A DNA stretch of 5,264 nt from an uncultured Faecalibacterium sp. (GTDB lineage Bacteria; Bacillota; Clostridia; Oscillospirales; Ruminococcaceae), in assembly GCA_934525735.1 (NCBI GenBank), contig CAKSZM010000095.1, positions 1-5,264 on the forward strand, read 5' to 3'. The notes beneath the pieces are model-generated. The model was not told the origin of the DNA and made no database searches. It saw nothing but the letters and a program-made list of their open reading frames with translations. Made by a program: the position numbers and the translations under genes. Below are positions 1 to 5,264 of this stretch, in pieces. Numbering within the stretch: position 1 is the first letter of the stretch; the number at the start of each line of letters is the position of its first letter.

Positions 1-68
1 TGGCAGAAGGTACTGCAATTTTCGGCTTCGTCGTTGCACTGCTGATCATCCTGTTCCTGGGTCAGTAA
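1..68 (+). CDS. atpE: ATP synthase Fo subunit c, 3' end only (partial)
   Basis: The reading frame from base 3 gives 21 residues ending at TAA 66-68: AEGTAIFGFVVALLIILFLG followed by Q. This fits the end of the second transmembrane helix of subunit c, the membrane protein whose ring turns as ions cross Fo. The Glu at the second visible residue sits where the family has its ion-carrying carboxylate (compare A-E-S-T-G-I-Y in Ilyobacter-type c, recalled from memory). The hydrophobic tail and short polar end match the family. The position immediately before atpF is the standard operon order. The start, helix 1 and the loop lie outside the window, so ion specificity and ring type cannot be decided. 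The residue after the Glu is Gly, where sodium-type rings usually have Ser or Thr. Confidence 0.88.
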   Translation, partial: AEGTAIFGFVVALLIILFLGQ

Positions 69-69
69 C

Positions 70-74
70 GGAGG
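70..74 (+). promoter_or_regulatory. Ribosome binding site of atpF
   Basis: GGAGG lies 9 nt before the ATG at 84 and just after the atpE stop codon. It supports the ATG at 84 over the second in-frame ATG at 99, which has only a weak purine stretch before it. Confidence 0.75.
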
Positions 75-83
75 CGCGGACGA

Positions 84-581
84 ATGCTGAAGTTGGATAT
101 GAACCTGCTGTGGACCGTGGTGAACGTCCTCATTATGTATGTGCTGCTGCGCAAGTTCCTGTTCAAGCCTGTTCAGGATGTCATTGCAAAGCGCCAGCAG
201 ATGGTGGATGCTCAGATGGCCGACGCGCAGGACGCAAAGAACAAGGCTCAGGCTGCCCTGACTGCTGCAGAAGATAAGCTGCACAATGTGGACACCGAGG
301 CTGCCGCCCGCCGTGAGGCAAGCGAGCAGCAGGCCGAAAAACAGAAAGAGCAGCTGCTGGCTGACGCACAGCGTCAGGCCGAGGCCATTGTGGCCGAGGG
401 CAAGGCAGCTGCCGAGGCAGAGCGTGCCAGCAAGCTGCGTCAGGCCGATGCGCAGATCGCAGACCTGACCCGCACCGTGTGCGCTAAGGTGCTGGAACGC
501 AACCTGACGCAGCAGGACGACGCCCGTTTGCTGGACGACCTGCTGCAGAAAGCGGGGGACAGCGATGGCAAGCGCAGCTGA
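84..581 (+). CDS. atpF: ATP synthase Fo subunit b (peripheral stalk)
   Basis: A 165-aa protein of normal length for bacterial b. Residues about 7-26 form one N-terminal membrane helix (NLLWTVVNVLIMYVLL), followed by the typical basic RKFLFKPV turn. Residues about 31-135 are a long Ala/Glu/Gln/Lys-rich helix, the dimeric coiled-coil stator. The C-terminal part (TVCAKVLERNL, then an acidic short helix to about 157) matches the segment that in the family docks on the delta C-terminal domain. The protein anchors F1 to subunit a so that alpha3-beta3 does not turn with the rotor. The gene starts 15 nt after atpE, and its last 17 nt overlap the next gene. It is not a b-delta fusion of the mycobacterial kind: the protein ends where ordinary b ends and carries no delta helical domain. 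Only one b-type gene is visible, so a b2 homodimer is likely. Confidence 0.95.
   Translation: MLKLDMNLLWTVVNVLIMYVLLRKFLFKPVQDVIAKRQQMVDAQMADAQDAKNKAQAALTAAEDKLHNVDTEAAARREASEQQAEKQKEQLLADAQRQAEAIVAEGKAAAEAERASKLRQADAQIADLTRTVCAKVLERNLTQQDDARLLDDLLQKAGDSDGKRS
554..559 (+). promoter_or_regulatory. Ribosome binding site for the delta-alpha fusion gene, inside atpF
   Basis: GGGGGA lies 5 nt before the ATG at 565, within the last codons of atpF. It makes 565 the natural start and implies translational coupling between b and the fusion protein. No comparable site precedes the internal ATG at 811, where a conventional alpha would roughly begin. Confidence 0.6.
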
Positions 582-2295
582 GACCTTGAAAGCATATCTG
601 CACTGCGCCCGCACCCCTGCACAGGAGGCTGTGGAGCGCATCCGCACCCAGCTCAAAAAGCAGTATGATGCTGCCGAAGTTGAGCTGATCGTCAGCGTGG
701 AGCCGGAGCTGATGTCCGGCTACGTGTTGCAGGTGGGCGACCGCGTGTTCGATAACTCCGGCAAGCATATGCTGGAGACCATCACCGCAGGCACCCCGGA
801 TCTGGCCACCATGCAGACCCGCGCAGAGGACTACAAGCCCGCTGCCGAGGCTTCTGAGGGCGGCACGGTCATTTCCGCTGCCGACGGCGTTGTGGAAGTG
901 CGCGGCATGGACAAGGCCGTTTACGGCGAGATCGTCACCTTCGACACCGGTGCCAAGGGCATGGTGGAGAGCGTGGAGCCGGATCATCTGGGCATCATGC
1001 TGTTTGACGATATCGAAAAAGTCGGCGTTGGTACGCTGGTCACCCGCAGCGGCAAGCGTGCGGGCATCCCGGTGGGCGACGGCTTCCTGGGCCGCGTCAT
1101 CAGCCCTCTGGGCGACCCCATCGACGGCAAAGGCCCCATCGAGTCCGTGGGCTACAACCCCATTGAAAAGCAGGCCCCCGGCATTCTGGAGCGCCAGAGC
1201 GTGGATACCCCGCTGCACACCGGCATTCTGGCCATCGACTCCATGTTCCCCATCGGCCGCGGCCAGCGTGAGCTGATCATCGGCGACCGCCAGACCGGCA
1301 AGACCTCCATTGCCACCGATGCCATCCTGAATCAGAAGGATACCGGCGTGCTGTGCATCTATGTGGCCATCGGCCAGAAGGCTTCTTCCATCGCCCGCGT
1401 GGCAGGCGACCTGCAGAAGCACGGTGCCATGAGCTACACCACCATCGTGGCTGCAACTGCTTCGGACTCCGCTCCGCTGCAGTACATTGCCCCCTATGCC
1501 GGCACTGCACTGGCCGAGTACTTCATGGCGCAGGGCAAGAGCGTGCTGATCGTTTACGACGACCTGTCCAAGCACGCAGTGGCTTACCGTGCCATCTCGC
1601 TGCTGCTGCGCCGTTCTCCGGGCCGTGAAGCTTACCCCGGCGACGTGTTCTATCTGCACTCCCGTCTGCTGGAGCGCTCCTGCCGCATGCGCGACGATCT
1701 GGGCGGCGGTTCCATCACTGCCCTGCCCATCGTCGAGACCCAGGCAGGCGACGTTTCCGCTTACATCCCGACCAACGTCATCTCCATCACCGATGGTCAG
1801 ATCTTCCTCGAAAGCGCCCTGTTCAACGCAGGCAACCGCCCGGCCGTCAACGTCGGTCTGTCGGTGTCCCGTGTGGGCGGTGCTGCTCAGACCAAGGCCA
1901 TGAAGAAGGCCAACGCGAACCTGCGTATCGAGCTGGCACAGTATAAGGACATGGAGTCCTTTGCACAGTTCAGCTCGGATCTGGACGCTGAGACCCAGCG
2001 CCAGCTGCAGCACGGCAAGGCTCTGATGGAAATGCTCAAGCAGCCGCTGTACCAGCCCAAGTCCGACGCCGAGCAGGTGGTCACGCTGGTGCTGGCTTCC
2101 CATGGAATGCTGGACAGCCTGCCCACCGCAGAGCTGCGCAGCAAGACCTCCGCATTTGTGCGTCAGTTCCGCGCGGATGTGTCCGGCACGATGGACAAGA
2201 TCACCGCGACCGGCAAGCTCGAGCCTGAAATGGTCGATGCGATCCTGAACGCCTGGAAAGCGTATGCGGGAGGCGACAGCTATGCCGTCCAGTAA
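565..2295 (+). CDS. atpA: ATP synthase F1 subunit alpha with an N-terminal delta (OSCP) C-terminal-domain fusion
   Basis: A 576-aa protein, about 75 aa longer than usual alpha. Residues about 78-576 are a complete alpha: N-terminal beta-barrel (about 99-170), nucleotide domain with P-loop GDRQTGKTS (240-248; Lys246, Thr247), family signature PAVNVGLSVS (426-435), arginine finger Arg436 at the alpha-beta interface, and the helical C-terminal domain to 576. Alpha pairs with beta in the alpha3-beta3 head and carries the non-catalytic nucleotide sites. Residues about 6-74 match the delta C-terminal domain: a predicted helix (about 17-34), strand EVELIVSVEPEL, then SGYVLQVGDRVFDNS and a short helix. 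The key pattern is G58-D59-x-V-x-D63-x-S65, equivalent to G-D-x-V-I-D-G-S in delta. No atpH lies between atpF and this gene. Start 565 has a ribosome binding site and overlaps atpF by 17 nt; the 3' end overlaps atpG by 14 nt. The alpha call is near certain; the delta homology is made by eye. Confidence 0.96.
   Translation: MASAAETLKAYLHCARTPAQEAVERIRTQLKKQYDAAEVELIVSVEPELMSGYVLQVGDRVFDNSGKHMLETITAGTPDLATMQTRAEDYKPAAEASEGGTVISAADGVVEVRGMDKAVYGEIVTFDTGAKGMVESVEPDHLGIMLFDDIEKVGVGTLVTRSGKRAGIPVGDGFLGRVISPLGDPIDGKGPIESVGYNPIEKQAPGILERQSVDTPLHTGILAIDSMFPIGRGQRELIIGDRQTGKTSIATDAILNQKDTGVLCIYVAIGQKASSIARVAGDLQKHGAMSYTTIVAATASDSAPLQYIAPYAGTALAEYFMAQGKSVLIVYDDLSKHAVAYRAISLLLRRSPGREAYPGDVFYLHSRLLERSCRMRDDLGGGSITALPIVETQAGDVSAYIPTNVISITDGQIFLESALFNAGNRPAVNVGLSVSRVGGAAQTKAMKKANANLRIELAQYKDMESFAQFSSDLDAETQRQLQHGKALMEMLKQPLYQPKSDAEQVVTLVLASHGMLDSLPTAELRSKTSAFVRQFRADVSGTMDKITATGKLEPEMVDAILNAWKAYAGGDSYAVQ
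580..786 (+). other. Region encoding the delta/OSCP C-terminal-like domain of the fusion protein
   Basis: Codons about 6-74 of the fusion gene. In ordinary delta this domain binds the C-terminus of subunit b, while a separate N-terminal six-helix domain binds the alpha N-termini. Here the b-binding half appears joined directly to alpha. The junction (residues about 75-98) contains L-A-T-M-Q-T-R-A-E-D-Y ahead of EASEGGTV. It lines up with the alpha N-terminal helix of other bacteria (R-x-x-x-aromatic, then SEAxxEGT), so the alpha part seems almost undamaged. The homology is judged by eye against remembered delta sequences. An unrelated alpha N-terminal extension is the alternative, but the GD-x-V-x-D-x-S spacing argues against it. 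Confidence 0.8.
2268..2273 (+). promoter_or_regulatory. Ribosome binding site of atpG, inside atpA
   Basis: GGGAGG lies 8 nt before the ATG at 2282. This selects 2282 as the gamma start rather than the in-frame ATG at 2264, which would add six residues, has no comparable site, and would place this GGGAGG inside the gene. Confidence 0.75.
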
Positions 2296-3169
2296 GCTGC
2301 TCAAGGAGCGTATCGAGAGCATTCAGGATACGATGAAGATCACGAACGCCATGTATCTGATCTCGTCGTCCAAGCTGCGCAAGGCACGCAAAAACTACCA
2401 GAATGTGCAGCCCTACTTCAACCGTATGCGGGATACCATTTCCCGTGTGGTGCCCCATCTGCCGGAAGAGCCGGTGCATCCGTTCTTCCATGAGCGCGGT
2501 TTCGAAAACCCCAAGCGGGCTTATATCGTGCTGACGGCAGACAAGGGCATGGCGGGCGCATACAACCAGAACGTCATCAAGTTCCTCAAGGAACACGCCG
2601 ATGAAAACGACCGGTTCTATGTGATCGGCCAGACCGGCTACCGTGCACTTTATCACAGGGATCCCCGTCTGGTGGAGAATTTCCATTACAGTGCTACGGC
2701 TCCTACGCTGCAGCGCGCCCGCGATATCACGGTGGATGCCATCGATGATTTCAAGTCCGGCAAGCTGGATGAGATCTATCTGGTCTACACCAAGATCGAG
2801 AATGCTCTGACCAGCGAGCCGACCATGGTGCGTCTGCTGCCGCTGGACCGCGACCATCTGCAGCCCGCACCCAAAGGTCTGGGCGACCCCACCGGCGAGG
2901 TGGAGATGTTCCCGGATGCATGGACGGTGTTCGAACAGACCGCACCCATCTACATGCACGGCATGATCTTCGGCGCCATGACCGAGAGCTACTGCGCCGA
3001 GCAGAGCGCCCGCATGACCGCCATGGATTCCGCCACCAAGAGCGCCAACGATATGATCCGTGAGCTGCAGCTGGAATACAACCGCACCCGTCAGGGCTCT
3101 ATCACGCAGGAGATCACCGAGATCATCGGCGGCGCGGCTGCGGTGCAGAACCGACAGAGCGTAGAATAA
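2282..3169 (+). CDS. atpG: ATP synthase F1 subunit gamma (central rotor shaft)
   Basis: With the start at 2282 the protein is 295 aa, close to the usual 285-300. Gamma is the asymmetric shaft that turns inside alpha3-beta3 and links it to the c ring through epsilon. The N-terminal helix reads KLLKERIESIQDTMKITNAM then SSSKLRKA (residues 5-36), as in the family. The Rossmann-like middle begins with YIVLTADKGMAGAYNQNV (81-98), equivalent to S-S-D-R-G-L-C-G-G-L-N. The C-terminal helix RMTAMDSATKSANDMI to QGSITQEITEIIGGAAAV (244-288) is the most conserved part of gamma and is intact. The gene overlaps the end of atpA by 14 nt, and its stop TAA at 3167-3169 is followed almost at once by a structured repeat. 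Starting at 2264 instead would give 301 aa, which the ribosome binding site makes less likely. Confidence 0.96.
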   Translation: MPSSKLLKERIESIQDTMKITNAMYLISSSKLRKARKNYQNVQPYFNRMRDTISRVVPHLPEEPVHPFFHERGFENPKRAYIVLTADKGMAGAYNQNVIKFLKEHADENDRFYVIGQTGYRALYHRDPRLVENFHYSATAPTLQRARDITVDAIDDFKSGKLDEIYLVYTKIENALTSEPTMVRLLPLDRDHLQPAPKGLGDPTGEVEMFPDAWTVFEQTAPIYMHGMIFGAMTESYCAEQSARMTAMDSATKSANDMIRELQLEYNRTRQGSITQEITEIIGGAAAVQNRQSVE

Positions 3170-3199
3170 AATTCGCCCTCTCAAGCCGCTTCGCGTCCA

Positions 3200-3218
3200 G
3201 CTCCCCCAAAGGGGGAGC
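3200..3218 (+). other. Perfect 8-bp hairpin in the atpG-atpD gap
   Basis: GCTCCCCC (3200-3207), loop AAA, GGGGGAGC (3211-3218). It is very stable but has no T tract after it (CCCTTGG follows), so it does not look like an intrinsic terminator. It may stall exonucleases and stabilise the upstream part of the transcript. Confidence 0.7.
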
Positions 3219-3248
3219 CCTTGGCAAAACCGGTAACTTTGCGTGGAA

Positions 3249-3280
3249 TGCCAAAGCCTCTCACTTTGGGAGAGGTGGCA
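3249..3280 (+). other. Second bulged hairpin in the atpG-atpD gap
   Basis: TGCCA (3249-3253) pairs with TGGCA (3276-3280), and CCTCTC (3257-3262) pairs with GAGAGG (3270-3275). A three-base AAG bulge lies at 3254-3256 and the loop is ACTTTGG. A smaller stem AGCGC/GCGCT (3280-3284/3289-3293, loop ATCA) follows directly. TGCCAA at 3249-3254 could instead pair with TTGGCA at 3221-3226, giving a competing fold. No T tract follows. Confidence 0.65.
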
Positions 3281-3336
3281 GCGCATCAGCGCTGACGGAG
3301 AGGGCGGAGTCGCTAGAAAGTAGCAACAAACAATAA

Positions 3337-4766
<1,430 letters not shown>

Positions 4767-4767
<1 letters not shown>

Positions 4768-5174
4768 TGGACAAGTTCATCCTGAACATCACGGCATCCA
4801 GCGGCGAGTTCTATCAGGGCTACTGCGAGGACCTGACCCTGCCCACCGGCGACGGTGTGTACGGCGTGCAGGCCGGGCACAGCCCGGTGCTGGTGGCCCT
4901 GCACATGGGCATCCTGCATTTCGAGGCGGACGGCGAAAGCCGTGATGTGCTGGTGGGCGACGGCATTGCCGAGGTGACCCCTTCGTATGTGATGGTGCTG
5001 GTGGACAGCGCCGAGCGCCCGGAGGACATCGACAGGAACCGTGCTGAGGAAGCACGCATCCGCGCGCAGGAGCGTTTGCAGCACCAGCAGAGCATGCATG
5101 AATATTATCAGAGCAAGATCGCACTCAACCGCGCGATGCAGCGTCTGCAGACTGCTGCCAAGTACAAGCGCTGA
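4767..5174 (+). CDS. atpC: ATP synthase F1 subunit epsilon
   Basis: A 135-aa protein of usual length. Residues about 1-84 form the beta-sandwich that sits on gamma and the c ring, with the family core LPTGDGVYGVQAGHSPVLVAL (25-45). Residues about 85-135 form the two-helix C-terminal arm, which in many bacteria can extend along gamma and block ATP hydrolysis. The arm opens with IDRNRA (88-93), matching the I(L)DxxRA motif known from ATP-binding epsilon of thermophilic Bacillus, so ATP sensing is possible but inferred. The ATG shares its A with the atpD stop (TGATG), with AGGGCGG at 4751-4757 as a modest ribosome binding site, so translation is probably coupled to beta. It is the last gene before a terminator, as in most bacterial ATP synthase operons. 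Confidence 0.96.
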
Positions 5175-5187
5175 GACCTGAACCCGC

Positions 5188-5236
5188 AAAACACCCGATT
5201 TTCTGGGGAATTTTCCCCGGAGAACGGGTGTTTTTT
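5188..5236 (+). terminator. Intrinsic terminator of the ATP synthase operon
   Basis: A long hairpin starts 13 nt after the atpC stop. AAAACACCCG (5188-5197) pairs with CGGGTGTTTT (5225-5234), TTCT (5201-5204) with AGAA (5221-5224), and GGGGA (5205-5209) with TCCCC (5214-5218). Small bulges ATT (5198-5200) and GG (5219-5220) interrupt it. The T6 tract 5231-5236 completes a classic rho-independent signal. The A-rich run on the left could also give some termination from the opposite direction, but that strand has a weaker T run. Confidence 0.93.
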
Positions 5237-5256
5237 GTTGTGCGGGGCCGGAGGTC

Positions 5257-5262
5257 TTGACA
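5257..5262 (+). promoter_or_regulatory. Possible -35 element of a downstream promoter
   Basis: A perfect TTGACA lies 20 nt after the terminator T tract. A -10 box would fall about 17 nt further, beyond the window edge, so this is only a candidate for a new transcription unit on the + strand. Confidence 0.35.
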
Positions 5263-5264
5263 GA

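Follow-up and report, generated by a model that had tools for sequence, protein, structure and literature searches.

A delta C-terminal domain fused to the alpha subunit of a Faecalibacterium ATP synthase and the peripheral stalks it may permit

The window analyzed here is a stretch of 5,264 nucleotides from an uncultured Faecalibacterium sp. (assembly GCA_934525735.1, contig CAKSZM010000095.1, positions 1 to 5,264 of the forward strand). It carries ATP synthase genes, and in one of them the C-terminal domain of the delta subunit (OSCP) is fused to the N-terminus of the alpha subunit. The following features were assigned.

3..68, plus strand: atpE (c subunit), 3' end only, its ion-binding Glu lying within E-G-T-A-I-F; read from the sequence against the full c subunit of the close relative L042
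84..581, plus strand: atpF, b subunit, 165 residues; PF00430 (E 1.1e-17) and local profile
554..559, plus strand: GGGGGA, putative ribosome-binding-site-like sequence 5 nucleotides ahead of the fused start codon; read from the sequence
565..581, plus strand: overlap of 17 nucleotides between the end of the b gene and the start of the fused gene; frame positions
565..2295, plus strand: fused gene for the delta C-terminal domain and alpha, 576 residues; open reading frame, PF00213 and TIGR00962 matches
571..786, plus strand: delta/OSCP C-terminal domain, residues 3-74; PF00213 positions 98-169
787..855, plus strand: junction and first alpha helix, residues 75-97; alignments and a predicted helix at 80-89
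808..2259, plus strand: alpha proper, residues 82-565; TIGR00962, E 3.7e-212
2264..3169, plus strand: atpG, gamma subunit, longest frame, a start at 2282 being equally likely; local profile, start read from the sequence
3355..4767, plus strand: atpD, beta subunit, 470 residues, Walker A and GER motifs present; open reading frame, local profile and motif scan
4767..5174, plus strand: atpC, epsilon subunit, 135 residues; open reading frame and local profile

The N-terminal residues were identified by profile search. With the whole protein as query, residues 3-74 matched positions 98-169 of the 172 positions of PF00213 (OSCP) with an expectation value (E) of 5.9e-10 and 39.9 bits, and residues 1-90 alone gave E 4e-11 and 43.7 bits, the cut-off being 22.3 bits. 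The first-pass annotation had placed a delta C-terminal domain at the alpha N-terminus, and an OSCP/delta profile search of these residues had been set beforehand as its test; the score above the cut-off confirms the assignment. A match of E 4e-11 at the correct end of the profile also rules out a chance hit. PF00213 positions 1-97, which represent the six-helix N-terminal domain of delta, had no match anywhere in the fused protein. Residues 4-74 matched positions 99-169 of the delta model TIGR01145 (E 5.9e-10), and the 39.7 bits fell below the cut-off of 57.5, as would be expected for half a delta. The NCBIfam model TIGR00962 (atpA) was matched by residues 82-565 at positions 10-495 of 503 (705.5 bits, cut-off 484.45). 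The alpha part is complete as judged from its sequence, in agreement with the near full length noted at first. The extension ahead of it is real as well, at a length of about 78 residues rather than the 74 originally estimated.

An artefact of assembly or annotation was ruled out, as the fusion occurs in a complete named chromosome and genus-wide. Residues 1-90 are 84% identical to L001 from chromosome NZ_CP094466.1 of Faecalibacterium sp. I4-3-84 (complete) and 83% identical to L002 from F. prausnitzii CNCM I 4541, and the nearest named relatives found for the fused domain belong to Faecalibacterium. A protein search with residues 1-78 returned 1970 proteins at E <= 0.001 from 2028 candidates; homologue details refer to the best 120 of these 1970. 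One of the best 120, the metagenome protein P0018, begins as a fused alpha and ends as an RNA polymerase alpha, and is probably an assembly chimera. Searches started from other fused lineages returned just 6 and 3 proteins.

The domain is under purifying selection: the ratio of nonsynonymous to synonymous substitution rates was 0.16-0.24 in three pairwise comparisons, versus 0.04-0.05 for the alpha part. This bears on the reading in which the enzyme is an ordinary one that lacks the extension, either through an internal start of alpha (ATG at 814, Met 84) or through cleavage. Position 84 is Met in 115 and Leu in 3 of the 120 close homologues (2 were not scored), which speaks for an internal start. 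However, this Met is not kept by the fused sequences from outside Faecalibacterium in alignment A1. In the window, no clear ribosome-binding site was seen by eye before 814 whereas a putative one precedes 565, and selection acts on the very residues that would be missing. Moreover, 13 of the 36 fusion genomes examined below would then show no delta-type b dock. We regard the loss of the extension as very improbable.

The gene order of the window, c-b-[delta C-terminal domain-alpha]-gamma-beta-epsilon, is the usual one minus atpH, and a local profile search detected no separate delta gene among the window's frames. The operon of L042 is complete by frame annotation and reads a-c-b-[delta C-terminal domain-alpha]-gamma-beta-epsilon, with only a upstream of c, a region that lies outside the window. 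The catalytic motifs of alpha and beta are present in the window; motif scans found the P-loop and the arginine finger of alpha and, in L042, the stator Arg of the a subunit. With longest frames taken, the b frame overlaps the fused gene in 34 of the 37 fused loci listed, and the gaps in the remaining three are 20 (L046), 70 (L115) and 30 nucleotides (L121). The distance from b to alpha is at least 463 nucleotides in operons with a separate delta. An operon without a delta gene is also reported for the N-type ATPase, often alongside an ordinary F-type operon (PMC5709465). This candidate was ruled out by its gene order, beta-epsilon-a-c-b-alpha-gamma, which differs from that of the window, and by a TIGR03324 score of 574.8 bits against a cut-off of 750.5.

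The fused protein was modeled with AlphaFold from 13 aligned fused proteins. Block means of the predicted local distance difference test (pLDDT) were 79-84 across residues 11-60, and the predicted elements were a strand (7-14), a helix (20-33), a strand (38-45), a hairpin (53-57/60-63), a helix (66-74) and the alpha helix (80-89). In a Foldseek search of the PDB with 50 rows, the top three were chains I, J and K of 9jc1 (559 aligned columns), and the remaining 47 were ordinary ATP synthase or F1 entries. The domain modeled alone had a mean pLDDT of 57.3, too poor for a structure search. The VIA-align listing consists of alpha matches and hardly tests the delta domain. When the PDB was searched by sequence only, the domain matched the ordinary deltas 9itj (E 6.4e-5) and 7p2y (E 7.4e-5), followed in third place by 9jc1_I (E 0.0099); chain d of 7jg5, a b-delta fusion, was matched at E 0.12.

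The entry 9jc1 is an engineered deltaDeltaN-alpha of Bacillus PS3 and, like the natural protein, has a delta C-terminal domain without its N-terminal domain at the alpha N-terminus and no separate delta. It differs in being laboratory-made, in the deletion of the epsilon C-terminal domain and in its junction, which exceeds the natural one by about 11 residues: 39 residues separate the end of the aligned domain from the V of the conserved alpha G-T-V in 9jc1, and 28 do so in the natural fusion. With the short natural junction, each domain would stay on its own alpha. Ueno et al. (2025) joined the delta C-terminal domain to PS3 alpha with removal of the delta N-terminal domain, which in their account limits the stalks to one, the number in ordinary FoF1 (PMC12229609). 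Their engineered enzyme carried two stalks on average and up to three, with a subunits; its H+/ATP was 5.8 +/- 0.4 versus 3.0 +/- 0.2, and its equilibrium proton-motive force was about half, 68 versus 133 mV at Q = 2.5. The ions moved per turn were proposed to equal c number times a number (PMC12229609).

Whether the window's arrangement had been described before was left undecided in the first-pass annotation. The type had in fact been reported: the Discussion of Ueno et al. describes a natural delta-alpha fusion in Acidaminococcus fermentans, predicts a multi-stalk structure for it and cites UniProt G4Q3K6 and A0A1I2C5T3 as having similar features (PMC12229609). By that published description, the Acidaminococcus protein resembles ours in that delta and alpha are fused and the delta N-terminal domain is missing. 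The window has a delta C-terminal domain ahead of alpha, no N-terminal domain and no operon delta, as in the published definition of a natural deltaDeltaN-alpha fusion, and it is a further member of the type in print since 2025. Among the matches listed from the open-licence PMC literature, there were no further reports of an alpha-delta fusion, and a search there for Faecalibacterium jointly with the peripheral stalk returned no paper. Joining delta to another stator subunit is also known from Gordonia and some mycobacteria, whose delta/b fusion is called a Rosetta Stone protein in a 2017 transcription-unit study (PMC5709465). There delta is on b and not on alpha, and hence occurs once per enzyme, whereas the b of the window is a separate frame (84-581), so that the distinction drawn at first from the mycobacterial fusion holds.

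The fused C-terminal domain was found in 25 of the 31 genomes of the reference genome's genus (PF00213, E <= 1e-4), two of them with short frames of 311 and 388 residues that were presumably cut by contig ends. A separate full-length delta accompanies it in 19 of the 25 and is missing from 6; at the same threshold, 6 of the 31 genomes have a separate delta only (split over two frames in G944). In a family sample of 148 genomes (E <= 0.001), 16 had a fused frame: 5 with a full-length delta-alpha (L037-L041), 10 with a C-terminal domain without the N-terminal one, including the triple fusion of G122 described below, and G049, cut by a contig end. A phylum sample of 398 genomes was searched with alignment A1, which spans the junction. 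At least 23 genomes had a stop-free match across it, among them G725 on a short frame; in the same search, stops appeared between delta and alpha where these are separate genes. Annotation of 20 of the 23 loci gave a complete set in every case, with a, c, b, fused alpha, gamma, beta and epsilon, and L108 is a full-length fusion. A class survey of 391 genomes was excluded from the counts, since its list does not cover weak fused matches. L051 and L053 were missed by the local delta profile and labeled fused by hand, with PF00213 scores of 25.9 bits and, below the cut-off of 22.3, 19.8 bits, respectively. A delta-like match in G064 (L052, 6932-7765, minus strand; PF00213 E 1.3e-5) proved to be a false lead, a FliH-like protein beside a FliI-like ATPase. 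In the fused operon of L047 (3209-5542, minus strand), gamma and beta are split into several frames, through sequencing errors or decay.

To see where delta is supplied from elsewhere, 36 fusion genomes were searched with PF00213 at E <= 10. The fused C-terminal domain was the only match better than E 0.1 in 13 of them (G701, G600, G557, G616, G829, G748, G648, G818, G241, G068, G077, G086 and G063), a separate delta was also present in 18, and a full-length fusion was the sole delta match in 3 (G137, G021 and G145). G537, with one match running over a fused gene with stops, was left unclassified, and contig ends make G049 unclear. The fused domain itself scores under the Pfam cut-off in G236 and G036. 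In G557, the fusion sits on a contig of 2,880,462 bases, about its whole genome. With this many cases, fused enzymes are unlikely to require a separate delta in general, though drafts may miss genes. They bear directly on the reading in which the full delta of a second operon joins the fused enzyme, sets its N-terminal domain on the axis and leaves one ordinary stalk. Co-occurrence of fused alpha and separate delta, in 19 of 31 genus genomes and half of the wider set, is what this reading has in its favor. It is opposed by the genomes with no other convincing delta match, 6 of 31 in the genus and 13 of 36 in the wider set, subject to the same gaps in drafts. The reference genome G001 has a complete fused operon (L042) and a complete ordinary operon (L057), and its separate delta belongs to the latter. 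The two operons lie far apart in the alpha+beta tree, which likewise argues against a mixed enzyme. We consider such an enzyme improbable.

The two operons of G001 also differ in their c subunits. Ion-site columns were taken as Ilyobacter Q32/V63/E65/S66/T67/Y70. They read I-L-E-G-T-F in the fused operon and E-L-E-T-T-Y in the ordinary one. The Na+ ligands at Ilyobacter Q32, E65 and S66 are not all matched in L042, which has I, E and G; the window shows E-G-T at the second site only. All 19 c sequences from the window's fused relatives (17 rows of its tree clade plus L043 and L047, outside the tree) have I or M at the Q32 column. E or Q at this column together with E65 and S/T66 was found in 20 of 22 separate-delta c sequences, the exceptions being L067 and L069; L071, with a double c, was omitted from this count. 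From these residues we predict that the fused enzyme is of the H+ type and the ordinary G001 enzyme of the Na+ type. A strict link between fusion and an H+-type c ring was ruled out by L046, with Q at the Q32 column, and by a second fused clade, with Q in L111 and L112 and D/N, an unusual ion site, in L113-L126.

The origin of the fusion was examined in alpha+beta trees of 35 and 54 rows, made by quick searches without an outgroup. L046, a very long branch, was scored as having the C-terminal domain only, and L043, L047, L052, L054, L063 and L125 were omitted (contig ends, broken frames or not ATP synthase). Full-length delta, with N- and C-terminal domains, is fused to alpha in proteins of 671-690 residues from six genomes (L037-L041 and L108). 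The full fusions L037 and L038 group with the separate-delta loci L067 and L069, and the full fusion L040 groups with L045, which has the C-terminal domain only, each with support 100. The start of L045 still resembles the final helix of a delta N-terminal domain. With groups named after the first tree had been viewed, the approximately unbiased test rejected a single clade of all fused rows (p 2.8e-6; 34 rows versus 20) and a single clade of the rows with the C-terminal domain only (p 1.5e-58; 28 versus 26). The likely order leads from a delta beside alpha through a full fusion to a protein that has lost the delta N-terminal domain, an end state that would have arisen repeatedly. L070 (6595-7735, plus strand) has a full delta and then a separate frame of 100 residues for a delta C-terminal domain ahead of alpha.

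Further peculiarities were seen elsewhere in these operons. L071 (3284-3745, plus strand) encodes a c subunit of 153 residues that is two c hairpins in one chain, and the operon at L041 (7985-8461, minus strand) has two c genes. The gamma-beta spacer of the window (3170-3354) measures 185 nucleotides versus 33 in L042 and contains an imperfect inverted repeat (arms 3185-3226 and 3249-3290, 74% complementary); a 23-nucleotide piece of this spacer had no exact match among 131 loci.

A neighboring lineage carries a triple fusion of a putative b', the delta C-terminal domain and alpha. Its three loci are as follows.

L046 6400-8649, plus strand: triple-fusion alpha of G122, 749 residues
L130 4612-6822, minus strand: triple-fusion alpha of G1041, 736 residues, with a, c, b, gamma, beta and epsilon around it
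L131 6403-7075, plus strand: N-terminal part of the triple fusion of G948, cut by the contig end

The N-terminal part was matched in just 3 of 297 family-sample genomes (E <= 1e-8), and a separate, shorter b of 138-141 residues lies upstream in G122, G1041 and G948. L046 is built from a b-like hydrophobic helix and coil, a delta C-terminal domain (residues 164-241, E 2.2e-9) and alpha (253-743). For G1041, the search match includes one TAA and starts 12 nucleotides ahead of the frame's ATG; as the match begins before the ATG, the TAA must lie there. Averaged over 19 residues, Kyte-Doolittle hydropathy reaches 2.2 within residues 1-80 of L046; the corresponding values are 1.8 in the b of the window and 1.05 in its fused alpha. 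Pfam made no b-subunit call on the N-terminal part of L046, and we read it as a putative b' with a predicted membrane helix. With three alphas per F1, the triple-fusion enzyme would therefore carry three covalent membrane anchors, which supports several stalks among relatives of the window indirectly but does not prove them. No report of a b'-delta-alpha fusion turned up in open-licence PMC, where no search was worded for such a fusion.

Alpha is present three times per F1, and three docking domains are therefore present. This revises the first-pass annotation, in which b would be covalently linked to alpha through one domain: the domain exists, but b itself is not joined and would dock on it non-covalently, and there are three such domains per enzyme. 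We lean, with modest confidence, to one b dock per alpha, which by analogy with the engineered enzyme is predicted to permit up to three stalks. The b dock of each alpha would sit on top of the head, and the delta C-terminal domain would bind b as it does in delta. With the delta N-terminal domain gone from the axis, all three docks would be usable. Each b2 would bring one a subunit, two or three b2-a units might assemble, and the ions per ATP would rise with the number of a subunits. Such an enzyme would be near equilibrium at low ion-motive force and could make ATP there, a benefit for a gut bacterium that lives by fermentation. The Faecalibacterium fusion may thus provide a low-gear H+ enzyme beside the predicted Na+-coupled ordinary one.

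Under a more economical reading, the delta C-terminal domain replaces delta as the b dock; one of the three is used, one b2-a unit serves each rotor and two domains are idle. In favor of this reading are the single a gene and single b gene of the L042 operon, the one stalk of ordinary FoF1 (PMC12229609) and the existence of full-length delta-alpha fusions, on which three stalks would be harder to fit. Nevertheless, the engineered equivalent takes up to three stalks unaided (PMC12229609), and the triple fusion would tether every alpha to the membrane. Conservation of the domain also argues against two idle copies, on which selection should be weak, although this point carries little weight because one gene serves all three. 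We judge the single-stalk outcome less likely than not.

Several observations weigh against multiple stalks. The annotated fused operons of the G001 type have one a and one b gene each, and the DNA shows no extra b or a; the separate delta of 19 of the 31 genus genomes could join the fused enzyme; and the fused clade takes in full-length delta-alpha fusions, whose three copies of the delta N-terminal domain would have to contend for one axis. The delta-facing N-terminal helix of alpha is weak in Faecalibacterium but well kept in most other fused lineages. The model of the whole fused protein was poor overall (mean pLDDT 62.8, predicted template modeling score 0.44). In the engineered fusion, pumping activity was lower, three-stalk particles were few and many stalks were lost on the grid (PMC12229609). 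The literature search found no stoichiometry, structure or activity of a natural fused enzyme. The wider proposal stays tentative, somewhat short of probable: that natural three-stalk ATP synthases exist, that Faecalibacterium runs a low-gear H+ machine beside a single-stalk Na+ one, that the arrangement had several origins and that the triple fusion, with a stalk and a membrane anchor on each alpha, would have three stalks built in. If true, up to threefold protons per ATP would be spent compared with a single-stalk enzyme with the same c ring.

Four elements of this survey were not found in the listed literature: the genus-wide two-enzyme arrangement, the intermediates, the genomes without another convincing delta match and the triple fusion. 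The survey adds possible intermediates (separate delta, full delta-alpha, C-terminal domain-alpha and b'-C-terminal domain-alpha) and genomes with both enzyme types side by side. Taken together, the intermediates, the two-enzyme genomes and the delta-poor genomes suggest that an ATP synthase can work without a delta N-terminal domain. A fused enzyme with up to three stalks would likely have a higher ion cost per ATP. As Faecalibacterium is abundant in the gut, where it lives as a commensal, and can be cultured, a possible natural variation in the number of peripheral stalks, and hence in the ion cost of ATP, becomes directly testable.

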